From: Caenorhabditis remanei
Taxonomy: Eukaryota; Nematoda; Chromadorea; Rhabditida; Rhabditidae
DNA: 64,000 nt
NCBI RefSeq assembly: GCF_010183535.1
Contig: NC_071332.1
Location: 3,906,001 to 3,970,000 of the forward strand
Direction: 5' to 3'
Below, in pieces: positions 2,651 to 56,300 of this stretch (position 1 is its first letter; each line of letters begins with the position of its first letter). The notes below the pieces were generated by a model that was not told the DNA's origin, did no database searches, and saw only the letters and a program-made list of their open reading frames with translations. The position numbers and the translations under genes are program-made.

Positions 2651-4878
2651 ATGACGTCTCTAACAATATTCCTTCTATCCTTACAACTAATATCTATATC
2701 TGCATTTGATTTCATGCAGAATTTCGAGAACTCATTCTTCGAAATCCAAGTGGATCGAGATCATCCTGACAATTTGTACAAAGAATTTGAAGAGTTTCAA
2801 GTGAAATATAAGAGGCAGTATAAGGATGAAATTGAGAAGAAGTTCCGGTTTGAGCAATTTGTAAGGAGTCATAATCAAGTTGGCAAGTGAGTACTGTAGA
2901 GCAGGAAACGCGCTCTAACGAAACTTATGCAGAAAAATTGAAAAATTGACCAAGTTTGACAGTACGTCACAAAATTTTCCTAGACTCCACCTGCCCAAAA
3001 ATTATATATCTGTGTAGATCAAACCTGCATCTCTATTTTTGCAGTTGACAACTTTTTTATAGCTATTTACGCTTTTGAGATATGCGCCTTTAAAGATAGA
3101 GGAGAGGGAGAGAGACGCAGAGAAGCGAGAGTGTCTGACCTCTCAGCTTCTCTTCCTCGTCCCGTGTGTTTAAAGGCGCATATCTCAAAAGTGGGCGGAG
3201 TTATCAAAAAGTAGTAAACTACAAAATTGTAGGGTTAAATTTTGTCTTTATATCTGTAAAAAATGCGACTTTTCGGACGGCAGGGTTGCGATCGAAGTCA
3301 GCCAAAATACGCGACGCAACCGCTCCGCCTCCCTTTATTACAACTTTCAAACACTTCCAGAATGAACAAAAAGGCAGAAGCGTCCGGTCATGACACGAAA
3401 TTCGGAATCAACAAGTTCAGTGACCGTAGTAAGGATGAAATAAGCGTAAGTTGGTATCCCCCAACTGCTCCCCCACCAATCATTTCTTCCAGAGCATGTT
3501 CTCAAAAGTCGGACCGTCCAACATATCACAATCGAATATTCCAATGTTCGATATGAAAAACTTTCGTGTTAAACGACAAATGGAGGGACTTCCGAAAATG
3601 TTCGATTTGAGAAATAAGAAGATTGGAGGGAGATATATCATTGGAGATATTAAGAATCAAGGTATCAACTTGAAATCTCTGACAAAGTTTCCTGAAATTA
3701 TGAATAACTTTGCAAGTGAAAATTTATATTCGTTAAATAGATCAAATCTGAATCTCCATTTTTGTAGTTAACAACTTTTTGATAGCTATCCACGCTTTTG
3801 AGATATGCACCTTTAAAGATAGCAACCACAGGAGGGCGTCTCGCTTCTCTGCGTCTCCCCCTCCCTCTCTCTCTGGCGCGTCTACAAGACTAACTATAAA
3901 GGCGCATATCTCCAAAGCGTGAATCCCTATCAAAAAGTTGTCAACTACAAAAATGAAGATCTAGATTTGATCTACAAGAAAGATGTAATATCAAAAGAGT
4001 GGGACCATTTTTGCGACAGGGAGAGACGCAGAGAACTTAGGGTGTCTGACTGACTGCGTGTCTTCCCCACACTGCATAACTTTGAGCGATAGTATCTCAA
4101 AAGCACGAATAGCTATCAAAAAGTGATCAACTACAAAAATGAAGAGCTTACATTGATCTACACAACCATATAAAACATATAATGCTCATACCAAACTACA
4201 GCCTGTTAAAGCTTCCAAAGACTAACTAACTATTTTCCAGGCGAATGCTCGTGTTGTTGGGCGTTCGCTGCAACTTCCCTTGCTGAAGTGGCGTATTCGG
4301 TGCATTTGAAGAAACCAGTGGTTCTATCCGATCAAGAAGTATGTGACTGTGCTGCGAAAGAGAGGCCAGGATGCTCGGGTGCATTACCGACTGACGGACT
4401 ACATTACATCAAAGAAATGGGATTGGCGAAAGAGAATGAATACGAGTACTCTCAAGAAAGATCTACTGAGTTGGGAAGATGTGATGCAGAAAAACATGAA
4501 CGAGACCTGAATCCGTTGATGCTTGATTATTATTTCATTGATCCATTCAATGCTGAATATATCATCACCCACCATCTCGTTCAACTGAATCTTCCAGTAT
4601 CTGTAGCATTCAAAGTTGGAGAAAGTTTGACAGTTTACAAAGAAGGTATTCTCGAACTGACGGATTGTGAGGACGCTAAAGAACAACACTGGCATTCTGC
4701 AACGATCATCGGTTATGGAACTACAATAAGTTCGACGGGACGGAAAGTGAACTATTGGATTTTGAGAAACTCTTGGGATACTGATTGGGGAGATTCTGGA
4801 TACGCAAGAATTGTGCGCGGAACCGATTATTGTAGCATGGAATCTCATGGAAATGGAGCACGAATTCCTGATGAATAA
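2651..4878 (+). CDS. Papain-family (C1A) cathepsin-like cysteine protease
   Basis: Four exons (2651-2886, 3361-3445, 3493-3661, 4241-4878) give an uninterrupted 375-residue protein. Residues 1-18 are a signal peptide (MTSLTIFLLSL...). Residues 30-107 form an I29-type inhibitory propeptide ending FGINKFSD. The mature enzyme starts near residue 135. The oxyanion Gln163 (KNQG), nucleophile Cys169 (ECSCCWAF), His315 (WHSATIIGYG) and Asn340 (RNSWDTDWG) are all present, so an active lysosomal or secreted protease is expected. The usual GSCW motif reads SCCW. A TTTCAG at 2631-2635 just before the start may be a trans-splice acceptor. Introns 1 and 3 contain R1 repeats. From memory the C. elegans C50F4 interval also has a C1A protease (tag-329), which would be the likely orthologue. 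Family certain; subfamily not. Confidence 0.93.
2990..3240. repeat. R1 foldback copy in protease intron 1
   Basis: TTTTTGCAGTTGACAACTTT and GCTTTTGAGATATGCGCCTT on the left; TTTAAAGGCGCATATCTCAA and TATCAAAAAGTAGTAAACTA on the right, separated by a stretch containing GAGAGAGACGCAGAGAAGCG. A complete intronic copy. Confidence 0.75.
3725..4170. repeat. R1 foldback copies in protease intron 3
   Basis: At least one full copy (3740-3980: TTTTTGTAGTTAACAACTTT to AAAGTTGTCAACTACAAAAA) followed by a second half copy up to 4165 (AAAAAGTGATCAACTACAAA). They account for most of the 579-bp intron. Confidence 0.7.
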
Positions 4879-5020: not shown

Positions 5021-5426
5021 TGAGTTGCGCGGAATTCCGACTTCCGACTTCTGGGCATTTTTTCATTTCCGACTTCCGACTTCCGCATAAGGAGTTTTAC
5101 TTCCGACTTCCGTCATTTCAACACTGTGAAATTTAGGAAGAAAACATTTCGCAGAAATACATGAAAAGATGGTCAAATAGGATAGAAAATGGCTTTTCTA
5201 CAGCCAAAAACCAATTTTCCAATGATTTTAGCGAGTTTTATGATTTTTCTCTTGGAGTTTGGAATATTTGCGAAAAAAAATCTACTTCCGACTTCCGACT
5301 TCCGACTTCCAACTTTCAACTTCCGACTTCCGGGCGTTTTTTGAATTCCGACTTCCGACTTCCGACTTCCGGATTAGAAATTTTACTTCCGACTTCCGTT
5401 TTAGAAAAAATCACTTCCGCACAACT
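5021..5426. repeat. foldback element filled with ACTTCCG tandem repeats, copy 1
   Basis: Arrays of the 7-mer ACTTCCG flank a unique core (5120-5280) that is the reverse complement of the core of copy 3 at 23931 (AATATTTGCG, CTTGGAGTTT, TTTTCTCTTG). The ends read GAGTTGCGCGGAA and CCGCACAACT, a decayed form of the terminal repeat AGAGTTGCATGGAA seen in copies 2 and 3. No coding capacity. Confidence 0.8.
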
Positions 5427-5608
5427 ATGATGTGAAGTAATTATTTAATCTACTTTCACAGAAAGTTGTGTTTAAATCTTTCTCAATGATTCTTGACTTT
5501 TTACGTTTTTCGAAGTTATACCCAGAAAGTAATCCTTTTTTAAATCTTAGAATTTGGTGTCTACTCCGAAAATTCGAAAAACTTTTTTCAGGCAAACAAA
5601 CTCATACC

Positions 5609-5950
5609 AGAGTTGCATGGAAGTGATTCCGGAAGTCGGAACTCGGAAATCGGAAGGCGGAAATCGGAAGTGAAATGTTCTTATCCGGAACTCGGAAGTC
5701 GGAAGTGAAATAACGCCCGGAAGTCGGAAGTCGGAAGTCGGAATTCGATTTTTTCTCAAACTTTCAAAAACCATTTTTCCATGCATTTCTGCGAAATTCA
5801 CTTCTCGAAAATTCCACAGTTATGGAATGACGGAAGTCGGAAGTGAATTTTCTTATCCGGAAGTCGGAAGTGAAATGTTCTTATCCGGAACTCGGAAGTC
5901 GGAAGTCGGAATGGAAAAAATGCCCGGAATTCGGAATTCCAGGCAACTCT
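5609..5950. repeat. foldback element with GGAAGTC repeats, copy 2
   Basis: Starts AGAGTTGCATGGAAGTGA and ends in a related inverted end, TTCCAGGCAACTCT. In between are runs of CGGAAGTCGGAAGTCGG around a core that contains CTTTCAAAAACCATTTTTCC and GCATTTCTGCGAAATTCAC. The same family as 23931-24263. Confidence 0.85.
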
Positions 5951-6885
5951 GACTCATACTGACCGAAAATGTGTGAACAAAACTTTAAGATCTGAAAATT
6001 TGGTGGAAAATGAATTTTTAGCACGGAATTGGTAATGAAAAACGGATAGAGCATACAAAAACTATAAACTAGCACAAAAACATAAAATTATGTCATGAGT
6101 ATACGTTTACTTTCCTCCCATTTCCCCTTTCATTATCTGTTCAGTTTTAAAAAAAATCGTGACCTTTCAATGCACCGCATGGCCCACGTGTTCGTAGTAG
6201 CAGTTTGTTCTATTAGGATTTCTTATTTATTTCGATTTATCCATGACTGCTGAACGGCTCGAAAGACGATTAGGGATAATTAGGGGTAAGTAGAGGTAAT
6301 TGTGAACTCTATTGGGGGTGGAATCTCGGAGTAGTTCCACATCCGTTCGCCCACATTTTCAGCCTTTCAGTTTTTCGACAAAAAATTCCACACTTTGAAA
6401 TACTTCGAAAACTGCATTTTCAGTATAAACATTCGAGAATTTTTTAAAACATTTGGTGTGATGCAACTGCGCTCTTTTGGACTTGGGTCATTTTTTCAGC
6501 TAATTAGAAATTTTGAACACCGTGAGTCTAGGAAAAGATTCAATAAAGTTGATATTTGATCTACCTTTTTCAAAATTGAAATCTCGAAAATTTTTCATAA
6601 TTTTTGAATTTCGAAGAATTTGATCTACTTTTTAGCTTTCAAATTTGAGAGTATTTGTCATCATTTTCGAATGTTGCTTTTTTGGCTAGTCTCCTCGTCT
6701 CCTATTCTGCTATTCCCCTAAAATCTGCGACTATTGATAGAACCGAGGTACGTGTTGGGGTATGGAGATGGGATTGGGAAAATCAGTAAATTTAACCGGC
6801 GGTGCTGTCTTTGTTCAAGTTTCAGAATCCCTTCATATCGAGGAAGACAACATCGACTTCAGAAGAATGACGAATTCAACGATCT
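5951..6885. other. noncoding stretch, nothing recognised
   Basis: AT-rich unique sequence with no convincing exon, RNA gene or repeat. It contains short CACGTG (6187) and T-rich runs only. Confidence 0.5.
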
Positions 6886-7028
6886 TCGTCGTTTAACGCG
6901 AAGGTTTTTCATGCCGAACATTAGAATATTCGATGGCGGTATGTTGGACGGTCCGACTTTCGAGAACATGCTGTGAATCGGATGAAACTTTCGGTGGTGC
7001 TGGGGGATACCAACTTATTGCTCGTGAT
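6886..7028 (-). pseudogene. inverted fragment of the cathepsin gene
   Basis: Read on the minus strand, this matches protease intron 2 and exon 3 (3449-3590): AAGTTGGTATCCCCCA, then AGCATGTTCTC, AAAGTCGGACCGTCCAACAT, TCGAATATTC, ATGTTCG, and CGTTAAACGACGA. Homology stops abruptly on both sides, so it is a truncated, inverted duplicate with intron sequence kept. That means DNA-level duplication rather than retrocopying. Confidence 0.85.
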
Positions 7029-7332
7029 GTCAACACGAAGTCAAATTGGATTCAGATGAATCGAACAAATCACAAGTTTCTCTCTTCATAAATGTCGGAT
7101 GAGTTTCACCATATGGTGGAGGTTTTGTCCCGCCTCCTAGTCTGATAGCAAGTAGTTGAGAAATATTTAAAACCCAGATTATTTTATTGATATGTTTTGA
7201 GTGTTGGATGAGCAAAAGAGGTACACGATAGTGGAAAGACGGGCTGAGAAACCAGTTGAACTGGGAAGAGAGATCGGGAAAATTAGTGAGAACGAAAAAT
7301 AAATAAACAACAATAAATTGGGGAAACGGACA

Positions 7333-7472
7333 CTTTTCGTTTGATTCCAGCCCTTGCTGTCCATCCCCTTCCCCTTTTGTCTTCTCCAGCTCTATTGTCA
7401 TCCCCACCACAGAAAGACAACGAGCTATTGAAAACAAAGTGGATAACAGCAAGAGGGGAATCAAACGAAAGG
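7333..7472 (+). ncRNA. long hairpin B0, unit 1 of a structured array
   Basis: The 5' arm (7333-7360, CTTTTCGTTTGATTCC...CTTGCTGT) pairs with the 3' arm (7446-7472, ACAGCAAG...GGAATCAAACGAAAG). An inner stem AGCTC/GAGCT with TTGTC/GACAA closes the tip. A C-rich bulge CCCTTCCC at 7366-7373 is complementary to the loop GGGAAGGG of the next hairpin. The strand of transcription is unknown; features are listed on the plus strand only for convenience. A purine-rich leader of about 130 nt (with GAGGTACACG) precedes it, as in the other units. Confidence 0.6.
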
Positions 7473-7490
7473 CCGAGTAGTACTAGTGAC

Positions 7491-7679
7491 TTTCTGGAAA
7501 CTAAATAATCCGTGGGGAGCTAGTTTTCTGTGGATCGATGTCTTCAATTCGATATCAGGGACCCGGATTTTCTACGAAAAAACGAATTGTAGACATTCGA
7601 TTTTTGGGGTCTGAGGGAAGGGATCAGACCTTGGAATTCACAGAAAACAGCTCACCACGGATCAGAAGGAGACCAGAAA
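7491..7679 (+). ncRNA. long hairpin A1, unit 1
   Basis: Nested stems: TTTCTGG (7491) with CCAGAAA (7673); ATCCGTGG with CCACGGAT; GAGCT-GTTTTCTGTG with CACAGAAAAC-AGCTC; TGTCT-TCAATTCG with CGAATTG-AGACA. A separate small hairpin GGTCTGA...TCAGACC (7608-7630) carries the loop GGGAAGGG. The terminal loop keeps GGATTTTCTACGAAAAA, also found in A2 and nearly in A3. Confidence 0.65.
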
Positions 7680-7804
7680 ATTGCTAGGAAAAGGGGGAAA
7701 AAGGGGGAAATGACAAGAAATAAGACTAAAATGAAAAATTACAGAAAAAGAAGAGAAAATCCATGGAGAGAGGGGGGTACAAGAAAGGGAGAGGAACAGC
7801 ACAC

Positions 7805-7937
7805 GGTCTCTCAGCGATGCGAGTGGAGGAATCATCACGCTGTCTGCCCTCACCCCTCCTCGAATCGTCGGAATGGAATTGCGAGATGAAAAACGAAAAT
7901 CGAGGAGGCGACAGCGACGATTGGCATCGAGAGAGGC
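7805..7937 (+). ncRNA. long hairpin B1, unit 2
   Basis: Outer pairing of TCTCTC-GATGC with GCATCGAGAGAGG. Inner pairing is CGCTGTC with GACAGCG, then CCTCCTCGA with TCGAGGAGG. A one-sided bulge holds CTCACCCC (7849-7856), complementary to the loop GGGGTGAG of A2. The stem base C-G here is T-A in B2 (CCTCCTTGAA with TTCAAGGAGG), a compensatory change. Confidence 0.65.
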
Positions 7938-7949
7938 ACGTGAGTTGAT

Positions 7950-8140
7950 GAATTTCTAGAAAAGAGGTGCTCCGTGCTAGACTGTTCGTCTGTGCGGATG
8001 TTATCAATTCGATATCAAAGAGGAGGATTTTCTACGAAAAAACGAATTGATAACATCCAATATTTCAAAGTCTGGGGGTGAGAACAGACTTAAAACCACA
8101 GAGAAGAGTCTAGCACGGAGCATCTGAATAATAGAAATTC
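7950..8140 (+). ncRNA. long hairpin A2, unit 2
   Basis: GAATTTCTA (7950) pairs with TAGAAATTC (8132). GGTGCTCCGTGCTAGACT (7966-7983) pairs with AGTCTAGCACGGAGCATC (8107-8124). GGATGTTATCAATTCG pairs perfectly with CGAATTGATAACATCC. The accessory hairpin AAGTCTG...CAGACTT carries the loop GGGGTGAG (8075-8082). The conserved terminal loop holds GGATTTTCTACGAAAAA. Confidence 0.7.
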
Positions 8141-8274
8141 ACCAAGAAAAAAGAGAGAAAAGAAATTAAAAGACAAGAAGAGGAAAAAGGTACAAAACTC
8201 AACAGACAAGAAGGAAGAAAAGAAAACAGAATGTAACAGACAGAGAAGAGGAAAAAGGTACAGAAAAAAACACG

Positions 8275-8408
8275 GTCCCCTGCCGATTGTCATTCGAGAT
8301 AACGAATCGCTGTCAGCCCCCACCCCTCCTTGAACTTCAAATAAAGACTACACAACAAAAAAAACGAAATGAAATTCAAGGAGGTGACAGCGACAATCGA
8401 CAGGGGAC
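8275..8408 (+). ncRNA. long hairpin B2, unit 3
   Basis: GTCCCCTGCCGATTGTC (8275-8291) pairs with GACAATCGACAGGGGAC (8392-8408). A local ATTCG/CGAAT stem follows. CGCTGTC pairs with GACAGCG and CCTCCTTGAA with TTCAAGGAGG. The bulge CCCACCCC (8319-8326) is complementary to the loop GGGGTGGG of A3. Confidence 0.7.
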
Positions 8409-8416
8409 AGTGGAAT

Positions 8417-8611
8417 GGTGATACTCTAGAAACCAGATGCTCCGCGGAACGCATTTCTCTGTCAGGATGTTATCAATCCATTATCTGGAAGGAGGATTTT
8501 CTATGAAAAATGGAATTGATAACATCCTATATCTCAAAGTCTGGGGGTGGGCGCAGACTTGTTGACACAGAAAAAGCGTTCCACGGAGCATCTGGAGACT
8601 AGAGAATCACC
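8417..8611 (+). ncRNA. long hairpin A3, unit 3
   Basis: GGTGAT-CTCTAG-CCAGATGCTCCG (from 8417) pairs with CGGAGCATCTGG-CTAGAG-ATCACC (to 8611). GGAACGC pairs with GCGTTCC where A2 has GCTAGACT with AGTCTAGC, so the stem is kept with different bases. GGATGTTATCAAT pairs with ATTGATAACATCC. The accessory hairpin AAGTCTG...CAGACTT has loop GGGGTGGG (8544-8551). It ends 40 bp from the stop codon of the minus-strand gene. Confidence 0.7.
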
Positions 8612-8650
8612 ATGGAAAAGGTGAGGAAAGAAGGGACGCAGGGGGAGTAA

Positions 8651-9889
8651 TCACACAATGTCGGCTTCTGGTCGGATTGGCTCTGGTGTTCTAAAAGTAT
8701 GTTTGATATGCATTTTTCAGCACAAGTGATTACACATACCTAATTTTCAGTTCCAGCGTTTGTATCAAGTACCAACAACTAATAAACACAGAAGAAAGGG
8801 CTATTCCAATGCTCCCCACATGCACCGAACACTCCACGAAAGTTATGAAGTCATAAATTACGACTGCCATTGCACATCCCAAGTATCCACTTATAATTTC
8901 CAATCCGCTTGCAAGCCAGTCCAAGTGGATGCTGGCTCTTGTTTGTCCCATACTTAAAAAATTAAGATGGCTTAAGTTGCATATTTACTTCCAATAATTT
9001 TTGAAATATGACACTCGATAACTACGATTTCTCCCACTTTGGGAGGTTTTGTGTTTTTTGAGAAAATCGTGTTTCAATGTCGGTGATTTTTTAAAAATGA
9101 GAAAGTAACGCGGGCAAGGAGAAGAAGAATTTGCCTTTTTAAGGGGATGCCATCTTGGTGTGTGTGCATTCGATGAATTATCTACACAATCTTTTCGAAA
9201 ACTGTTGAGTTTTCAAGTTTGTTTATGGTACAGGTTTGCTGTAAATGTGAATTAATGAACTCAACTTACTATATAGAATTGAGTAGCCTGCATTTGTTCC
9301 AATGATTCCTCTACTTACTGCTCCGAAAAAAACAGCGACGAGGGCAACACAACACACGAATTTTGTTGTCCGGTCGAGGGAATGGACACGAATCCTTGGC
9401 TCACCCGCGATTTGGTACTGTAAGAGAGAAAAGTTATTTAGTGTTTGAATAAGTCACCAAACCTTCAGCCCCATCATCAACAAGGTGAGGAAGAATGTCG
9501 GAAGAGTAGAGGCTGAAGTACCACTAAACTTCAAGGTTGAATTATTTTGTTCTGTAAATTTTTAATCTTACTTTACGAAACTGGGATACTGCCAAATTGT
9601 CGGTGAAGTGGTGTTTGCAATATTCTCGTATGCAATACCCGTTATGGACACAATCGACAACACACTCCACTTTCCAATACTGGAAAAATCACGATTGGGC
9701 TCATTCATGTACTACATACGACACTCACGATAGAATATATGGAGCTAAAAGCATCAGCGCTCTCCTAAACATTTTTCCTGTCTCCAGAAAGTCATTCAAC
9801 ATCGATTGAGCCACTAGTGCGCGTATGTCTCGTGGTGGTTGTCGAAGATCCGCTACTACCAGGGGTAAGTTGTCAAATCCTCGATCCAT
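8651..9889 (-). CDS. putative multi-pass membrane protein, frame uncertain
   Basis: Six exons on the minus strand: 9889-9729 (start MDRGFDNLPLVV), 9679-9577, 9528-9463, 9417-9270, 8952-8740 and 8690-8651 (TGA). Exons 1-2, 3-4 and 5-6 join in frame with good GTGAGT, GTAAGT or GTATGT donors. Translation shows about four hydrophobic helices: LMLLAPYILS, TFFLTLLMMG, VCCVALVAVFFGA, and two in exon 5 (GCAMAVVIYDF, GIALSSVFISCWYLI). Two weak points: the exon 3 acceptor (CTTGAAG) is poor, and exon 4 ends in phase 1 while exon 5 needs phase 2, so there is a one-base frame break or an unseen splice choice. It may be a decaying gene. I do not recognise the family. Total about 240 residues. Confidence 0.55.
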
Positions 9890-10173
9890 TTTTTGTTATT
9901 TTTGGTTGAGGTAGTCTGAAATATTTGTGATATCAATGAAACCATTGTGTAGTGAATCAAATTAGAAAACCGAACCAAAATCAGGAAAAATAGCTAATGC
10001 GCCGACCAACAATAAATGCAGTACCGACCGAAAAGTGCCTGTTGTTTCCCATTCCCAGTTGACCAGGTTTGGATGAATATCACAATCTCACTAGTTGCTT
10101 CTAGTTCTCAATTCTCTCAAAATATGGTCAGCAAAATTGGAGCTTCATTTTTCTAATTATTACCTTTTATGTA

Positions 10174-17855: not shown

Positions 17856-19468
17856 GTTTTCGTTATTTTTAATCAACAGGTCGATTTGATGGAGAAATTA
17901 CTTTGTCAATACGTAACTCTCTAGGAAGTGTCCGTACAATAAAGTTGTCAACTACAAAAGTAAAGCTCAAATTTTGATCTATATGATCCATCAAACATTT
18001 ACTTTGTGGGACAATCAAAATTACTATGACACACTCTCAAAGTTGGACAATTTCCACTGAAAAGGTCAATGTTTGTAACCTTTTGACGGATACTGTAATT
18101 TAGGGCTTCCATCCAGATAGAAGTCTTACCAAAACGATGTTCTACATTTTTCTTAATATTTTCACGAATTTTGATACTGTTTTCTACAAAAATCCAAGTT
18201 TTACAGATGTCTGAAGATCAAAACTCGATATATTTTAACTACAAAACTTAGACAGCCCTGAAGATATGGGTAACAAGTAGATAGTAGTGGTCCAGTGGTC
18301 AAAAAATAAATAAGAGTGTTTTCATTAGCAAAATTAGTATAAACATCAATTACACGTTCTATTTTTGATACACCGGTCATGGAAATATAAATATGCGATT
18401 TCTCGAGTTTTCGTGATTTTCGAAAATTTAAGACTTGTGAAACATGATTTTTCACCTAGAATGTTGATTAAATATAACGAAAACGCTATAATAATATGTT
18501 TTCCCAAAGTTTCCGATCCGACCAATTTGAAAAAAGTTATGGCCCAAAAACCCTTGCGGAATAAGATTATGGCCAGCACTGTATTAGGTTGGCAAGAAAG
18601 TTTTTCCAAATTTGTCGAATCTCGGGCCGGGCTGAGATTTTCCTTGTTGAAAAAATGGTTGATGCCATTCGATCCGGCGTCTCAAAAAACCTATAATGGG
18701 AAGCTTTTTTGAAATTTTCAAATAATGTCATCTGCTCTATCACAGGTTTTCTGAGAATCAGCAGCGTCAAAATTTTAGCGTGTTTTTCGATTTTGTGGCT
18801 AGGAGCTCAAAAAAAATAAAAAGAAGGCGATTATAATCAGTTGTCGCTGACTTAGTTCTGATACTTACTAAAATCAAAATTTATCTGAGAAACAGATTTT
18901 CTCCCGCTGAAACAGCTCAATTTAGCAGACTATTCTATGTAAGACATTTCCATGATTGTTATCTACTGGTAATTTTGTAAAATTGGGAATCCGATACTGA
19001 GCACTTATCAAAAATACACTTCTGGACTTTGTGGTTCATATTAGTAATCAATCAACCACTTTGAGGGTCATTTTCCATCTACCTGGCTCGATCAGCGTGG
19101 CTCCTTGAGATATGATTTAGGCATCAGATGGGAATTATGGCTGACAGCGGAACAGACCTTGACTTTATGGAACAGAAGGGAGTTTGGATCACTTCTTCTT
19201 TCAGATCATTTCTCAAATTGTTTCTGAGATCAGCAGTTATTCCAGATTTATTTTTCTCGTTTGATTTGCAAACCCCTCAAAACATGCATAGACTGCCTTT
19301 CTCAATTCTCAATATATTCTCAACGGATGCGACAGAGCGCGACTTCCTCTGAGAAAGGAGACGGGTCCTCTTGTGCAGCCTCTTGTGTGTAGCCTCTTTC
19401 TTACACCATCTGCCACCACCGACACTCATCGATTTTCCCCTCTAGCAAGGCCATTCTCCCTCTCAACC
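17856..19468. other. repeat remnants and unassigned sequence
   Basis: 17875-18095 is a half copy of the 10174-10612 family (GTCCGTACAATAAAGTTGTC, ACACTCTCAAAGTTGGAC, GATACTGTA). 18560-18585 has a Tc1-like end GGCCAGCACTGTA. 18610-18630 has a GGGCCGGGC scrap. From about 19380 the 5' flank of the next gene begins (CACCATCTGCCACCACCGAC, TTTTCCCCTCTAG), shared with its paralogues. No other gene is seen. Confidence 0.5.
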
Positions 19469-20450
19469 ATGCTCAATAACCTCCGTGTCGTAGAAAAACC
19501 GTCCGAGTCCAGAGACTTTATTGCTAGAATTCTGTCAGTGGATGTCTCGATAATTGTTTGGATGTTCATCATTGGAAAACAGTATCTGTTGTTTTTCATT
19601 TGCGCATATTATGCTTTTAACGTGTATGTTAGTGAGAATCCACCACTAGAAGAAATTCGATCGGTTGGCTATTATAAAAGAAAAATAAGAATCGCAATTA
19701 TCGGATCAATTCTCTATATAATCTCCCATGTTATCATTTTGAATTCGCTAGATTTGAGTGGATGGGTTAGTTATTTTCAAAATTTTGAAAATATTTGATC
19801 AATTTATAACAAATTGCAGACTTATTATACCATATACTGTCTTCTCAATGTGTTTTATCCGGTATTTTATATTCGATACACGTGGAAAGTTGTGGTTTTC
19901 AGCGGATTCAATTTGAAATATGGATATGGTATTGGACCTGTCATTTTTGGGATAATCGCTATTGTGATTCTTTTTTATCAGGTTAGTGGTATGTTTGTGG
20001 ATTTCAAGCTTTGAAGAAGCGTCTCTCCAAAACTAGCAAAGCTCTCAAGAAACTGTCAATTGCAAAATTATAGAGCTAGTTTTGATCTACGTTTTTGTAG
20101 TTGACAACTTTTTGATAGCTCTTCACATTTTTGAGATAACCGGCTCTAAAAATAGGTTGGCAGAGGCGGTGGAGCGACGCAGAGAAGCTAGAGTGTCTGA
20201 CTGTCCGCGTCTCTCCGTTTGCGGCTGTAAGATCCATTTTTAAAGGCAAATATTTCAAAATATGTAGCCATAGCTTTGATCTACAACACTTTTAAAAATT
20301 TCATCTTTCCAGAATCCCCAAGGCGGGCAGCAAATCCATGTCTGCGCATTGCTTCATTGTATCTACGATTTCTGTCTCACTTTCAAATATTTCTGTATCG
20401 AATTACCGGGTCCTGAAGAAACTTTATTGCAACGAATTAAAACTGAATGA
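19469..20450 (+). CDS. four-helix membrane protein family, paralogue A
   Basis: Exons 19469-19765, 19820-19981 and 20313-20450 (phases all 0) encode 198 residues. Hydrophobic segments: about residues 31-55 (VSIIVWMFIIGKQYLLFF...), 73-93 (IAIIGSILYIISHVIIL), 101-118 (YTIYCLLNVFYPVFYI) and 137-153 (GIGPVIFGIIAIVILFY). Conserved blocks shared with B and C are VEKPSE.RDFIAR, IRSV.YYK, Y.RYTWK, GFNLKYGYGIG and the cytosolic-looking tail LLHCIYDFCLTFKYFC, ending LLQRIKTE. I know no named family for it. An AATAAA lies at 20478-20483. Intron 2 contains an R1 repeat. Confidence 0.85.
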
Positions 20451-23034: not shown

Positions 23035-23258
23035 TGCATTTTTTGTTGTTTTTGTTGAATTAATAAAAGTTATAAACTTATAACAATTGTTCTGTCATAC
23101 CTACGCCCTCAAACCTTCCAGCTTTTCTATTTTTCTAATGTTCTTCAGTTTCGGTAGAGCGTGGTTGTAGAGCTCTATTGTGCGTCTTCTATCGGACCAT
23201 CTGCCACCATACAATCATTGATTTTCCCCTCTAGTGAAACCATTCCCCCCTCTCAACC

Positions 23259-24595
23259 ATGCTCTATGTTGTAGAAAAACCGTCAGAGTATAGAGACTTT
23301 ATTGCTAGAGTTGGCTCACTGGATGTCATATACGCTATTTGGACAGTAAATACCGCATACGGAAATCATGAAATAATGGGTTATTTGCCGTTCTTAGTAC
23401 TCGGTTATCTTGGTTTCAACTTGAATCTTTCTATCAAAATGCAACCAGATACAATTCGATCGGTGGACTATTATAAGGGAAAAATGAGAGTGGCTATAAT
23501 TGGGTCAATTATCTATTTAATTGGTCATTTCATTGTTTTGTACTCACTCGATTTGGATGGATGGGTAAGTTATCTCTATGTTGTACATAAAAATCGATAA
23601 TTAAATTGCAGACCCACTATACCATATTCAACCTTCTCAATGTGTTTTATGCATTATTTTATATCAGATACACATGGAAAATTGTGGATATTATCGGATT
23701 CAACTTGAAATATGGATATGGTATTGGACTAGCTGTTTGTGCACTAGTCACTATAATTGTTTGCTGGTATCAGGTTGGTTTTTTTTTGCTTTAATCTTTG
23801 AAATCGGTATATCTCTAAAGCTTGACAAGTTATCAAAAATATTCCAACTACGAAATTATAGAGCAAGTTTTCAGCGACATTTTTGTAGTTGACAGTTTTC
23901 CAAAAGCTCTTTTGGTTTTACAGCTATGCCAGAGTTGCATGGAAGTGAAAATTTCTTATCCGGAAGTCGGAAGTCGGAAGTGAAAAAACGCCCGGAAGTG
24001 GGAAGTTGGAAGTCGGAAGTCGGAATTATATTTTTTCGCAAATATTCAAAAACTCCAAGAGAAAAGATCATAAAATTGGCGGAAATCAGTGGAAAATTAG
24101 GTTTTGGATGAAGAAAAGCCAATTTTCTCTCTTTTGAGACCATTTTTTCAAGTATTTCTGCGAAATATACTTTTCGGAAATTCCACAGTTAAATATGGAA
24201 TGACGGAAGTCGGAAGTGAAATTCCTTATCCGGAAGTCGGAAGTCGGAATTCCATGCAACTCTGAGCTATGCGCCTTTAAAATGACATGTTTTGTCAAAT
24301 GGCGGTTTTACCCATCTTCAAACCGTAAAAAACCTATGAAAGCTATCAAAAAGTTGTCAACTGCAAAATTAGAGAGCTAGTTTTTTTCTACCGTAATAAC
24401 AAAAATTGCAGACAAATGGTTGTCTACCCGTACTCTAAAACTAACATGCATTTTCAGAATCTTCGAAAAATGCGCATATATGAAGTCTACGCATTACTTC
24501 ATTGTATCTACGATTTCTGTCTCACTTTCAAATATTTTTGTATCGAAATACCGGGTCCTGAAGAGACTTTATTGCAACGGATTAAGACTGAATGA
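23259..24595 (+). CDS. four-helix membrane protein family, paralogue C
   Basis: Exons 23259-23564, 23612-23773 and 24458-24595 join in phase 0 to give 201 residues. It has the same layout as paralogue A: a variable first third (RVGSLDVIYAIWTVNTAYGN), then the conserved RSVDYYKGK, RVAIIGSIIYLIGHF, YTIFNLLNVFYALFYIRY, NLKYGYGIGLAV and the nearly identical tail ending LLQRIKTE. Intron 2 holds an R1 repeat interrupted by the GGAAGTC foldback element. The upstream flank repeats ATCTGCCACCAT and TTTTCCCCTCTAG as in A. A tandem, recently duplicated gene; product unknown. Confidence 0.85.
23931..24263. mobile_element. GGAAGTC foldback element, copy 3, in an R1 repeat
   Basis: Perfect terminal repeats AGAGTTGCATGGAA and TTCCATGCAACTCT. 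Internal arrays of CGGAAGTCGGAAGT surround a core with CGCAAATATTCAAAAACTCC. The flanks GCTATGC and GCTATGCGCC suggest a target duplication of about 7 bp at the R1 sequence GATATGCGCC. This is the cleanest member of the family. Confidence 0.85.
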
Positions 24596-27473: not shown

Positions 27474-30400
27474 CTAAGAATTCCTCAAAAATTTATCATA
27501 AGCAACGGGGAACGTCTTCGCCGCCAACATCGCGAATCCGGCATCAGAAGCATGAAGAAAATGTTCCAGTTTCACTAAATCAACGTGGGAATCATCTGAA
27601 TCCTCGACGATGACTTCAGAAGCATCTTTCCGAGATTCTTTTTTCTCTGCCAACTGGTAGTGAGCCCTTCCCAATCGATTCAAAAAGTCGTGACGAGATT
27701 TGATGACACTCAGCGAGCAACGGAGGATGAACGGGTGCTCCAGAATCGTTTCGTTGTTGATTCGCATCACGTCACGAACGTATTTGTAGGTACGGGACAC
27801 TAGTTTGGCGTCTGAAAATTTTGAAATTTTTTTCCAAAAATCCGTTATTTTTTGCTTGAAAATGCAGAAAAATCCAATGAAAACTCTCGAAATTCCTGGT
27901 ACGGTAATCTGAGCAAGCGCGCTCTACCGAAACCAAGCAAAAATTGTTTGGAGAGACGCAGAGAACACGATTTCGATGGAGCGCATTTGTGAAAAGCCGA
28001 ACTTTTTTTTACAACTGCGCCCCACCGCAAATCTCGCGCGCCGACACAGTTTTTGACCAATTTTCGCTATTTTTCATAATAATTTACCGGAAAAAAATGA
28101 AGAAAATAGCAAAAAATAGGTCGAAAACTGTGAAAATCTGTTCGGCTTTTCACAAACGCGCTCCACCGAAATCATGCTCTCTGCGTCTCTCCACACACAA
28201 TTTCTCTCAGTTTCGGTAGAGCGCGCTTGCTGTGTGAATCTCAGATTACTGTAATCCACCTCACCTACCCATCATAAAAAGCCGCGGATCTACCGTAACC
28301 AAAGTCTTCAACTGTGTCTGACTGAAATTCAACTCTTTCGTGAACATTTTCACCAATCTCTCCAATGGACCCGTTCCAAACATTATGATTCTCGGCTCTT
28401 TCACAATTATCTCTCGTGTCGTTTTCGCATTTAATTTGAACTGTTGTTGGAGCCATCCGAGTCGCGAATCAATCAATTCCACGTTGCAATTCAACCAGTA
28501 TCGATACTCTTTCACGATCTTTCGTCGCTCCGGTTTCGTGAATTTCTGGAGAAAGAAAATCGGAGAATACATTTTTTTAAATAAAAGTTTTCGGATTTTA
28601 CATTTTTCTCGAAATCTTGTGAATCAAAGACGGTGTTCTGGCCTAGGATTCGTCAACTCGGCCATCGTGATCAGGGTTGGGAAATCCCGGGCCGAGGAAA
28701 TGTCCGGCCCGGCCCGGCCTGGTCGGCCCGGATTCAAAAATTGTGCATAATTTTTTCACATATTTTTTCGAAATTTTCAATAAAAAATGATCAAAATGCT
28801 CCAAAATTCTCGTACACTTCAGTTTTTATCGATATTCCAAAACATTGTCGAAAATTCGACTTTTCTGCGAAAAATTCAACAAATTTTCAACAAATTTCAA
28901 ATTTCTACTGTAGCCGGGCCGGGCCGGCGGGCTGACCGGGCCGGGCCGAGGAAAATTTTTTGGTCGGCCCGGCCCGGCCCGGAATTCCCCAACCCTGATC
29001 GTGATACTGTGAAAAAATAAAGTTTCGACAATGATTTTCAAACAAATTTTCGCGGGCTAAAACGCAAGGGGGATCGTGGGGCGGAGCTTAATCTGCAAGC
29101 GGCGCGGATATAATTCCAGCTGATTTTTAAACGAACAACAATGAATTTCAAGATAAATTTGGGTTTTAATTGATGTTTTCAACGTTTTTTGCATCGACTA
29201 AAACCCAAATTTGTCTTGAAATTCATCGTTGCTCGTTAAAAAATCAGCTGGAATTATATCCGCGCCGCTTGCAGATTAAGCTCCGCCCACGATCCCCCTT
29301 GCGTTTTAGCCCGCGAAAGTTTGTTTGAAAATCCTTGTCGAAACTTTAACAGTATCTCGCCACATTGTGCTACCGTAATACTTTGAGGGAAAATTTGAAT
29401 TTTATTTCATTTTTCGTTTTTCTGCGAAAAAATATGATGAAAATCGCTTGTAAATCGCAAACTACTGCAAAATTTCCCCCCAAAACATTAACTTCAACCC
29501 ATATTACTTTCATCTCCAAATAATTGAGTCTCGTCCGCATATCATTAACATCTTGTATCAAAAAGAACGGATTTCTTGTCAAATACGAGCCGATCTCCTC
29601 GTTTTCGAATCCAATTTCCTCCTGCATCAACTCGATTTTCAGACGGACATCCTCCATTTCAAGTCGTAACAAGTGCCGTCCGATACTCGTTGTATTCTCA
29701 ATTTCAGCCAAATCCACTCCGATATCAACGAGAAATCGGAGAAGTGGCGAATGATTGACGAATGGAACGAGAGTTAGAGAGTGAACAGGAGGGAGATCCG
29801 ATGGGTCGAATGGATGAGGATTCGATGGAGACGGCGGTTCGGAGAGATTCGAATTCGACAGTTCTCCACAGGAATAGTCGATGAGACGGTATCGAGGATA
29901 GCCTGGAAAATGGGAATTTGCGAAAAACTAATTCGATTTTTTTCGAAAGTGAGTATCGGCTGGGGTGCCTGCGGCGCTAAAATCGGCTGGGGTGCCTGCG
30001 CCGCTAAAATCGGCTGGGGTGCCTGCGCCGCTAAAATCGGCTGGGGTGCCTGTGGCGCTAGAATCGGCTGGGGTGCCTGCGCCGCTAGAATCGGCTGGGG
30101 TGCCTCCATCGCAAACGAGAGAGTATCGGCGCAGAGAGACGCAGAGTTTTTTTCTTTTTTTCTCGCGCCAACTCTGATTTTCACAGTTTTTGGCCTATTT
30201 TCGCTGTTTTTCATAATTTAAAAAAAAATTGTGAAAATCTCGTTGCGATGGGGCGCAGTTGTAAGAGAGGGGGGGGGGCTGCTAATATTAAAATTCTCAA
30301 TTTTTCACGGATTTTCCGGCTAAAAATCCCATTTCTCCTCTACGAACCGGTCTCCCTCTTCAACCTCCTGGCCTCTTCGAAGACTGGAGCTGAAATTGTC

Positions 30401-51219: not shown

Positions 51220-51538
51220 CCCCACAAATCGGGGAGAAACGTGGTGCGGGAAACACGAATCGGGGAGAAACAAATCGGGGAAATACCATTCGGGGAAATA
51301 CAATTCGGGGAGAAAGGGGCGGAGTCGCGAAAAAACTGTGCGGCAGTTGCAAAATAACTTGCTCATGGTAATTTTTCCTCTTGAAACTACTGTAAAAAAA
51401 TTTTTTTGCAACTGCCGCACAGTTTTTTCGCGACTCCGCCCCTTTCTCCCCGAATTGTATTTCCCCGAATGGTATTTCCCCGATTTGTTTCTCCCCGATT
51501 CGTGTTTCCCGCACCACGTTTCTCCCCGATTTGTGGGG
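51220..51538. repeat. foldback element with minisatellite arms
   Basis: CCCCACAAATCGGGGAGAAA ... CGGCAGTTGCAAA on the left and its complement TTTGCAACTGCCG ... CTCCCCGATTTGTGGGG on the right. Each arm contains five short tandem copies of (T/A)TCGGGGA(G/A)A, mirrored exactly. The centre of about 60 bp is AT-rich. Confidence 0.9.
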
Positions 51539-53369: not shown

Positions 53370-56300
53370 ATGGCGGGTATTCTACGTCGATTGCGGCGGT
53401 CTAGCAAGAAGGCGGCCAAGTTTCGGTTCACTGTCACGCTTCAAGTGGGTTTTTGGTTTAAAGTGTGGTTTTACGGGCGTAAATCTACACAGAAAATGAC
53501 TTATGGGCGTAAATCTACACTAGAAGTAGTTATTACCTCCGTAAATCTACACTGACAGGGAGCTTCGTAAATCGACATCTAAAGCAGTGCAGTGTAGATT
53601 TACGACCGTAAATCAACTTTTTGGCTTTAAAACAGGTTAAAAATGTGGTTTTACGGGCGTAAATCTACACATGAATCGGTTCATGTAGGATTACGCTCGT
53701 AAATCGACATCTGAACAGTATCCTGTAAATTGACGGTTGTAATTCAACTGTAGTTTTACTGGCGTAAATCTACACTGTCTTGAGTGCTTCGTAAATCCAC
53801 ACTGGAAACATCTCTTGTGTAGATTTACGACCGTAAATCCACATAGAAATTGACTATGGTGGATTTACGGCCGTATCTCTACAGAGACCTTGATTATTGT
53901 GGATTTACGGGCGTAAATCTACAATGTCTGGAGAGCTTCGTAAATCCACACTAGAAACACATCTTGTGTAGATTTACGACCGTAAATCCACATAGAAATT
54001 GACTATTGTGGATTTACGGCCGTATCTCTACAGAGACCTTGATTATTGTGGATTTACGGGCGTAAATCTACAATGCCTGGAGAGCTTCGTAAATCCACAC
54101 AAGAAACACATCTTGTGTAGATTTACGACCGTAAATCGACATTTCTGAGCCGATTTTCTTCATTTTTCCACTGATTTTCTCTCACTTGTTTCCAGGAGCT
54201 CCAACTGTACACTGATGAGAAATGGAAACCCGAGAATCTCGTCGTGTCATTCGTTCATCGGTAAGCACGAAGGGAGGTGTCAATTTTCGCTTATCGCGGA
54301 GAAAATTGAACTTCTAAAAGGCTGTCAATCGGAAAATAGAGGCAAAATAGATTAAAAATCGGAAATATTAGAAAAGAAAAGATCGAAAATTGCTAATTTT
54401 TGGAGGAGAAGCAGAAGTTTGCAGAAAATTTCAAGTTTTCCGTCTGAAAATGTTAAAATTTGAAGAATCTTCAAAAATGCTTTTTTTTCAGTATAGAAAT
54501 CGAGCGAGTACAGCTGAAAATCCCTATTTCGATCAAATTGTTATGATTTTCGACGAGAAAACCCTCAAAACCGTCAAATTTTCGAGATTTTTCAGATTTG
54601 AAAATGCTTTTTTACAATTTTCTGGCATCAAAAGTCATGATTTTCAGCAGTTTTTCATGGAAATTCAACAGAATTCTCAGAAATTTTCACATTCGAAAAT
54701 CCAACTTTCTTCATTTTCAAGGCAAAAATTTCATTTTCAATTTTCCAGACAAAAATTTCAATTACTGATTTTCAGCGATTTTCAGAGGAAAAATTTTCAA
54801 CAAAAGCTATCAATTCTAAGCCAAAATTAACAAAAATGACAAAAACCCAACAATTTTTGCGATTTTTGGTCTAAAAATGTGAAAAATAGCTCAATTTTTT
54901 GATATTTTATCTGAAATTGTCAGATTCCGCTTTAAAATCATCTAAATTCTTGAAAATCAGCCGAAAATCGTTAATTTTTGCTTTTAATCATTGAAAAATT
55001 ACGAAAAATTACAGATTTTTCGAGATTTTGGTTATGAAATCAGTCAAAAAACCCATCAATTTTTGTGATTTTTGGTCTAAAAATGTGAAAAAGAGATCAA
55101 AGTTTTCATATTTTCAAGAATTTTATCTCGATCAAAGTTCTAAAAACCCAATTTTTAATAAATTCCAGCCGCCGAAAAGTGTCGTCCAAAGAGCGAAAAT
55201 GGGAGCAATCGTACTCGGACGCGAATAAATGTGTGATAATGTGGCCGGAGCAAATGACAGAGAACGTTGATATCTTGACAACTCTCTACCGTATTCAAGA
55301 TGATGACACATTTGAGGATAAGGAATGGACAATTGTCATCGAAGAGCTCAATTCGAAAGGAAAACGGAAATCGATCGCCGCGGTGCCCATCAACGTTCGC
55401 TTATTCATTCTTGATCTACCCGATCATAAAAGTGAACTGAAACTCAAGCTCCGCCCACTCTCACCTCATCTGAAATCGTGTAGTCTCATTATCCTTCTCG
55501 GCTCCACACTGATTTCAGAGGTGAGTGCTGGAGATGACGTGAGCATCACGTCGTCGGCTGCAAACTCGTCGTTTGTTGAGAAGACGCCGGTCACTGATGA
55601 GACTGATGCGACGAGTGATGTGAGAGGTAATTTAGAGGCAGAATCTGACAATTTCAGATAGGGAAACGAGTGGAAAATGGAAAAATGGAGCTATTTTTCT
55701 TATTTTTAGATCGAAAATCGCTAAAACTGATGAATTTTCTCACATTTTTATTACCACGACACACTTCTTACAACCGCTCTCTACCGAAATTGAAAAAATT
55801 GTGTGCGAAATTGAGAGACGCAGAGAAAAATATACATTTTTCAAGGAGATTTCGGTGGAGCGCAGTTGTAAAAACTGTGCGGGGCTAGAACAAAAATCGC
55901 AAAAATTGATGAATTCCTTACATTTTAGACCAAAAATCGCTGAAATTAATGAATTTTTGACCAATTTCCGAGCCAAAATCGCAAAAATGGATAATTTTTT
56001 CACATTTTTAAACCAAAAATTGCTGAAAATTGATGACTTTTTGACATTTTTCAGTTGATTTTGCTTTGAAATTGATAGTTTTTGTGGGAAAAACTGCTTT
56101 CTCGCCATTTGGAACCTGAAAAATATAAATTTTTTTTTTAATCGCTGGAAAAACATGCAAATCACGAAAACTGATAAATTTTGGCTCCGGGACATTTCGC
56201 AGCTAGACGTTTCGCAGCCGAGACATTTCGCAGCCAGACGTTTCGCAGCCAGACGTTTCGCAGCCAGACGTTTCGCAGCCGTGAGCTCCACAGCCTCAAA

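Follow-up and report, generated by a model that had tools for sequence, protein, structure and literature searches.

A tandem array of six long hairpins in the genome of Caenorhabditis remanei is most likely a structurally constrained, cis-regulatory 3′UTR. Read from the sequence itself, the array occupies part of a window of 64,000 nt (contig C5, positions 3,906,001-3,970,000), follows the stop codon of the gene GCK72_017112 on the minus strand, and comprises three units, each with a branched hairpin (A) and a second hairpin (B). We consider it about an even chance that these three units form the body of the GCK72_017112 3′UTR and provide, in cis, a platform to which dsRNA-binding proteins attach.

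Anatomy of the array and its place behind GCK72_017112

The six hairpins described in the sequence-only reading were all present at positions 7333-8613, with limits within a few bases of those given there. In single-hairpin folds their order was B1 A1, B2 A2, B3 A3 on the plus strand, and on the minus strand, that of the predicted mRNA, the order was A3 B3 spacer, A2 B2 spacer, A1 B1 tail (Table 1). The distances from one A-core start to the next were 460 and 469, and the A-to-B gaps inside units measured 2, 3, and 13 nt. In every A hairpin we saw a long outer stem, an accessory stem-loop of 6-7 bp set at a three-way junction, a core stem, and a loop of ~31 nt; the core stem of A2 consisted of 16 perfect pairs, while those of A1 and A3 were interrupted. 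The B hairpins had an imperfect long stem and a large apical loop, and both B2 and B3 started with CACGGTC on the plus strand. Watson-Crick pairs numbered 61, 67, and 74 in the A hairpins and 52, 46, and 45 in the B hairpins. The pairings quoted earlier for the A stems (GCTAGACT/AGTCTAGC and GGAACGC/GCGTTCC), the accessory A stem, and the purine-rich leaders carrying GGTAC were found, as were the B pairings CCTCCTCGA/TCGAGGAGG and CCTCCTTGAA/TTCAAGGAGG, although these last had been labeled B1 and B2 and actually belong to the second and third B hairpins.

B1 was the divergent member. Its stem sequence differed from that of the other B hairpins, and a model built from those two recovered it as a weak relative (18.2 bits, E 0.0015) in a search in which the wrong strand of B3 scored 20.3 bits; in the flanks, the B model gave at most 11.7 bits. 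The kinship of B1 therefore leans also on its position in the unit and on the GCTGT/ACAGC blocks that it has in common with the other B hairpins. A covariance model of the A hairpins gave 142-176 bits for its own members and 35.5-38 bits for the wrong strand of the array, and in 40 kb of flanks it matched two simple unbranched hairpins at 39.5 and 31.4 bits. Since the flank scores resembled the wrong-strand scores, matches at that level mean merely "hairpin", and we dropped this model as a finder.

On the minus strand, 37 nt separated the GCK72_017112 stop codon from the start of the array. Our exon reading and the deposited protein were identical at the C-terminus (...LELKIRTPEPIRPEADIV); the deposited protein departed from the first exon model in a single region, that from the fourth exon to position 8952, and the small exon at about 9238-9186 was placed by eye. 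After the AATAAA that follows the array, the next on this strand lay at 6231-6226, and just two matches to 11 other hexamer variants were seen in 8652-6500 (AATAGA at 7396, in B1, and AACAAA at 6815). Hexamer scarcity was rejected as evidence (one seen versus 2.05 expected of 11 hexamers with composition allowed for, P 0.39): the pyrimidine-rich composition predicts a low count, so the argument lies in the place of the one AATAAA and not in the absence of the others. Given that the array sits between the GCK72_017112 stop codon and the first AATAAA of that gene, a minus-strand 3′UTR is the simplest reading, and in our own judgment the array is, with fair confidence, the predicted 3′UTR of this gene; transcription would then run through the array to the candidate poly(A) site. 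The same position led us to set aside the earlier assignment of the array to a plus-strand RNA of its own.

A free-standing long noncoding RNA could nonetheless be made from either strand and act in trans, either by occupying Dicer or dsRNA-binding proteins in the manner of rncs-1, a noncoding RNA that C. elegans induces on starvation, or as a sponge for proteins that bind the loop or the spacers. Such an RNA would suit an array that is long, highly paired, branched, and multivalent, and rncs-1 provides the precedent, being described as a ~800-nt competitor of endogenous dsRNAs for Dicer or its dsRBD partners (PMC3771402). Moreover, the plus strand folds as well as the minus strand: the full predicted UTR had an MFE of -502.6 (z -16.2) on the plus strand and of -498.1 (z -15.4) on the minus strand, based on 60 shuffles per strand. 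With the array only 37 nt behind the stop codon, however, an independent minus-strand transcript would need a start site inside GCK72_017112, and a plus-strand transcript would meet an AATAAA within the B3 loop, at 8340. We regard a free-standing RNA as unlikely, though worth keeping in mind. Energies and wobble counts were also tried as a means of choosing the strand and were dropped, with a neutral or mixed outcome: the plus strand folded better for the A hairpins by 0.8-2.5 kcal/mol and for B2 by 4.5, the minus strand folded better for B1 by 14.3 kcal/mol and for B3 by 10.6, and the plus-strand tally of G-U versus A-C was 6 to 11 by one method and 2 to 5 by another.

GCK72_017112 was present in one genome copy and is a possible C. 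remanei orphan gene. A word-based search, of a kind that misses distant relatives, returned only the protein itself at E<=10 among 5.8 billion sequences, other nematodes included, and the joined protein matched no Pfam family. A match of its last 83 residues to DUF898 (17.4 bits, under the cut-off of 28) was disregarded. Hydrophobic stretches were noted by eye.

The units were separated by C/U-rich stretches on the minus strand. Of the 63,885 windows of 116 nt, 24 had one strand with a pyrimidine content of 84% or more; they clustered at two places, which were the two spacers, with both the length and the threshold taken from the spacers themselves. Within the 64-kb window, the hexamer UGUACC was confined to the minus strand, where it occurred six times; four of the six were in the spacers or the tail, a fifth, at 9232, fell in a coding exon, and the sixth was outside 6500-10000. 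Similarity between the spacers (score 23.5) was not above that of 300 shuffles (mean 20.1, sd 3.8, largest 32.5), so the spacers have just composition and UGUACC in common. Additionally, UAYYUU, the SL2/operon motif, matched at 8260 and 8192; immediately downstream of the array lies the piece of a protease gene described below.

Table 1. Features of GCK72_017112 and of the hairpin array, in order along the minus strand (positions in the window)
Feature	Positions	Strand	Basis or remark
Coding part of GCK72_017112, 244 aa	8651..9889	-	exon reading and deposited protein
Exons of GCK72_017112	9889-9729, 9679-9572, 9523-9463, 9417-9319, about 9238-9186, 8952-8740, 8690-8651	-	read from sequence
Stop codon TGA of GCK72_017112	8653-8651	-	last-exon reading
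Predicted 3′UTR, ~1.47 kb, whole array inside	7165..8650	-	stop codon and first AATAAA; 3′ end approximate
C/U-rich stretch, stop codon to A3	8614..8650	-	~87% pyrimidine
Hairpin A3, first in predicted mRNA	8415..8613	-	branched stem, accessory stem-loop, large apical loop
A3 apical-loop motif UUUUUCAUAGAAAAUCC (mRNA sense)	8494..8510	-	17 nt, conserved
Hairpin B3	8271..8412	-	single-hairpin fold
C/U-rich spacer after B3	8146..8269	-	86% pyrimidine; partly degenerate 34-nt tandem repeat; UGUACC-C/U tracts at 8262, 8194
Hairpin A2	7946..8144	-	single-hairpin fold
Loop motif copies with G for A	8025-8041 (A2), 7565-7581 (A1)	-	same motif
Hairpin B2	7802..7942	-	single-hairpin fold
C/U-rich spacer after B2	7685..7800	-	84% pyrimidine; UGUACC at 7781
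Hairpin A1	7486..7684	-	single-hairpin fold
Hairpin B1, last in predicted mRNA, divergent member	7333..7472	-	single-hairpin fold
C/U-rich tail after B1	7189..7332	-	72% pyrimidine; UGUACC at 7225
Candidate poly(A) signal AATAAA	7183..7188	-	first downstream of stop on minus strand

Covariation, the loop motif and folding strength

Covariation in the A cores was assessed on three paralogous copies, from which the structure was itself derived, against 500 shuffles. The other two A cores had 80% and 67% identity to A2, and in the tool alignment of the three cores 92.5% of the 161 cells of 54 pairs were paired (shuffled mean 85.9; reached by none of 500). Changes on both sides were present in 10 of the 54 pairs, compared with a shuffled mean of 3.6, and again no shuffle reached this count; of the five measures, the one counting further pair types was reached by 7 of 500 shuffles. 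When the 3′ partner was slid by 1-3 columns, pairing fell to 38-40%. RNAalifold, on a longer A alignment, returned 62 pairs, 13 of which had changed on both sides in one sequence or more, and an alignment with the accessory stem adjusted by hand had 59 pairs, of which 32 were invariant, 12 double-changed, and 13 had at least one unpaired or gapped cell. On this hand-adjusted alignment, pairwise compensation was above the null in all six directed comparisons (P<=5e-5 each). The compensatory change that had been proposed for the A stems was thus borne out, exceeding the shuffles. The consensus of the three B copies contained 33 pairs, 11 of them double-changed, and was given little weight on account of the poor B alignment.

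The double changes of the tool alignment fell into about five clusters, one of which comprised five neighboring pairs of the outer stem and may represent one event. This distribution bears on a purely mutational origin, in which the arms of inverted repeats would have been re-matched by template switching or arm-to-arm gene conversion and the units duplicated by slippage, with no selection. Template switching is described as able to produce, in a single event, both perfect stems and compensatory changes of several bases (PMC8794818), the clearest double changes are that block of five neighboring pairs, and long simple hairpins are common in the region; the spread of the double changes over about five separate clusters speaks against such an origin, as does the near fixation of a 17-nt motif in the A loop (47/51 identities), which re-matching of the arms would leave unprotected. 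We consider mutation bias without selection unlikely, though worth keeping in mind. Selection on structure, the conclusion of the sequence-only reading, stands as the best reading, while the restriction to three paralogous copies means that template switching could have given part of the covariation.

The motif, with the consensus UUUUUCRUAGAAAAUCC in mRNA sense, was chosen for its conservation, and its 47 identities in 51 positions, summed over the three A-to-A comparisons, should be read beside those of the other parts. Identity was 54/71 in the accessory stem-loop, 38/48 and 39/51 in the core-stem arms, 62/84 and 51/87 in the outer-stem arms, and 72/90 in the whole apical loop, which was not above the core-stem arms. 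Since conservation of the whole loop is roughly that of the core stem, the argument from the motif against mutation bias is a moderate one. Searches of the 130-Mb genome returned three matches to the 17-nt motif, all inside the array, in keeping with the conserved A loop noted earlier. That loop had been called unpaired, and its conservation held, but by eye a weak mini-stem (UUUUC/GAAAA) is possible there. Viral contigs were scanned for the 17-nt loop as well, and the 56 stretches with one match each were taken as chance.

Folding was compared with 200 dinucleotide shuffles for each hairpin. The z values were -6.9, -12.6, and -13.6 for A1, A2, and A3, and -7.3, -3.3, and -10.2 for B1, B2, and B3, with 2 of the 200 shuffles folding as well as B2. 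After correction for GC, 200-nt stretches at 51276, 29076, 17301, and 56401 outfolded every part of the array on both strands. With simple hairpins of equal or greater strength in the window and its flanks, folding energy alone is not what distinguishes the array; its distinction is the tandem branched architecture plus covariation.

The four stretches just named, along with positions 2274-2380 and 3523-3666 of locus L085, were very strong simple inverted repeats and are possibly mobile-element hairpins.

Dispersed copies, known families and the neighborhood

We searched the 130,466,896-bp assembly (186 contigs) for copies of the array. With blastn at E<=1, which skips very common words and scores the best candidates only, 7940-8610 returned six matches and 7325-7940 two, all inside the array. 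A 25-place A-loop pattern with up to three mismatches matched the three array sites and six others (two to three mismatches), and the 18,150 bases of the loci of these six weak look-alikes contained no model match; a 27-place B motif, again with up to three mismatches, matched just the two expected array sites. Dispersed copies, the outcome named earlier as one that would turn the hairpins into scattered MITEs, were thus absent from both the blastn and the pattern searches. Tandem insertion of mobile elements (MITE or foldback) that have since decayed would explain inverted repeats with similar outer ends, as in B2 and B3; with no relatives elsewhere by blastn, loop motif, or B motif, this origin is largely refuted in this genome, and we consider it extremely improbable.

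The same searches bear on whether the array is a small-RNA precursor, that is, an hpRNA or a cluster of pri-miRNAs diced into siRNAs or miRNAs. The hairpins, with 45-74 Watson-Crick pairs each and a perfect 16-bp core stem in A2, would be in keeping with such a role. No other arm-like sequence was found in the genome (blastn, E<=1), which argues that there is no extended hpRNA target, though short targets are possible. Precursors of miRNAs have an unbranched stem of ~33 bp; the A hairpins, in contrast, are branched with large loops, and no Rfam miRNA family came near its gathering score. A precursor role is, in our assessment, very unlikely. Across Rfam as a whole, no family reached its gathering score in the array, consistent with the earlier statement that no matching RNA family was known, and at E<=1 the matches were to MIR396, MIR834, MIR7533, and NEAT1_2, all far below their gathering scores.

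Several other repeats and gene fragments were present in the window. Beyond the poly(A) signal of the array, 133 nt at 6885-7017 on the minus strand were a 79% identical inverted copy of 3447-3580 on the plus strand; the latter lies upstream of a papain-family protease ORF at 4210-4878 (Peptidase_C1), apparently in the same gene, and 6885-7017 would be a fragment of the protease gene, including an apparent intron edge. Similar ORFs at 19292-19798 and 23238-23600 on the plus strand, both with VVEKPSE.RDFIAR, appeared to be paralogous exons and had no Pfam match. A 149-bp tandem repeat at 53755-54142 (2.6 copies, 95%) contained shorter units with TTTACGGCCGTAAA-like palindromes, and a 27-bp repeat at 29955-30105 (5.6 copies) had an open frame and lay near two ORFs, 28261-28620 and 29370-29924, with weak mTERF matches below the cut-off. 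Finally, the 7-nt repeat ACTTCCG/CGGAAGT formed several arrays, running in both orientations, within 5284-5899.

A putative dsRNA platform and its place among known systems

We propose that the mRNA of GCK72_017112 would carry, after its stop codon, three units that each run from a branched A hairpin through a B hairpin to a single-stranded, C/U-rich spacer, followed by the poly(A) signal. The units would have arisen by tandem duplication, after which the A cores diverged while their stems stayed paired and the 17-nt loop motif remained nearly fixed. The stems could then form a multivalent, double-stranded cis platform that binds ADR-1/ADR-2, Staufen, or RDE-4/Dicer, candidates that we guess from C. 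elegans, and the loop motif and the UGUACC-C/U spacers may add sequence-specific contacts. In this way the platform might set the editing, stability, localization, or translation of the GCK72_017112 mRNA. By analogy with the worm systems below, a multivalent 3′UTR dsRNA platform is most likely the most economical mechanism. A more specialized version, in which a repeated module was triplicated and selected within one mRNA, is read at UUUUUCRUAGAAAAUCC by a dedicated protein, and is possibly released in trans, seems to us rather doubtful.

Since dsRNA in worm 3′UTRs is mostly tied to inverted repeats and transposons, an array that re-paired and is not dispersed would, if confirmed, mean that the dsRNA itself was selected. 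The three internal copies are natural variants for asking whether it is shape, loop, or number that dsRNA-binding proteins recognize, and the array offers a clean test of selection versus template switching behind compensatory change.

In one study of C. elegans, most A-to-I editing events fell in introns and 3′UTRs, where the surrounding regions held inverted repeats or transposons (PMC4282642). The 3′UTR of clec-41 is edited and its mRNA is bound by ADR-1, and clec-41 mRNA in neural cells is reported to be down about threefold without adr-2 (PMC5644944). The array contains long intramolecular helices of tens of base pairs, a feature of Caenorhabditis ADAR-type 3′UTR elements, and its likeness to the edited 3′UTRs of clec-41 and lem-2 (PMC5644944, PMC4282642) lies in long intramolecular dsRNA, the 3′UTR of the array being a predicted one; like them, it may in principle be able to bind ADR-1/ADR-2. 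As those accounts describe them, nearly all edited regions of C. elegans contain inverted repeats or overlap transposons, whereas for the array no dispersed copies were found. The array further differs from the edited 3′UTRs, as described there, in its three tandem units of two hairpins, branched A hairpins, covariation, loop motif, and C/U-rich spacers.

Judged by its descriptions, rncs-1 resembles the array in being a long, highly paired nematode RNA (PMC3771402, PMC5415849, PMC6765114). It is reported to resist dicing for want of free helix ends (PMC5415849), a resistance that the branched hairpins of the array might share. In contrast, rncs-1 is presented as a separate noncoding RNA of ~800 nt (PMC3771402), while the array most likely lies within an mRNA and consists of tandem repeats; were the array RNA to act in trans, rncs-1 would be its closest analogue in working mode. 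The stems attributed to template switching (PMC8794818) have multibase compensatory changes, as do those of the array. Template switching is a mutation mechanism and not an RNA class, however, and the process as set out in PMC8794818 leaves the fixed loop motif unexplained; selection is favored by this motif and by the spread of double changes over several distinct clusters.

Among literature titles and abstract openings, a sample with subscription papers mostly outside it, we found no tandem hairpin array in a nematode 3′UTR. The array thus most likely belongs with the known long 3′UTR hairpins rather than with a new RNA class, and what appears to be new among these, within the literature searched, is an array that is tandem, branched, non-dispersed, and covarying.
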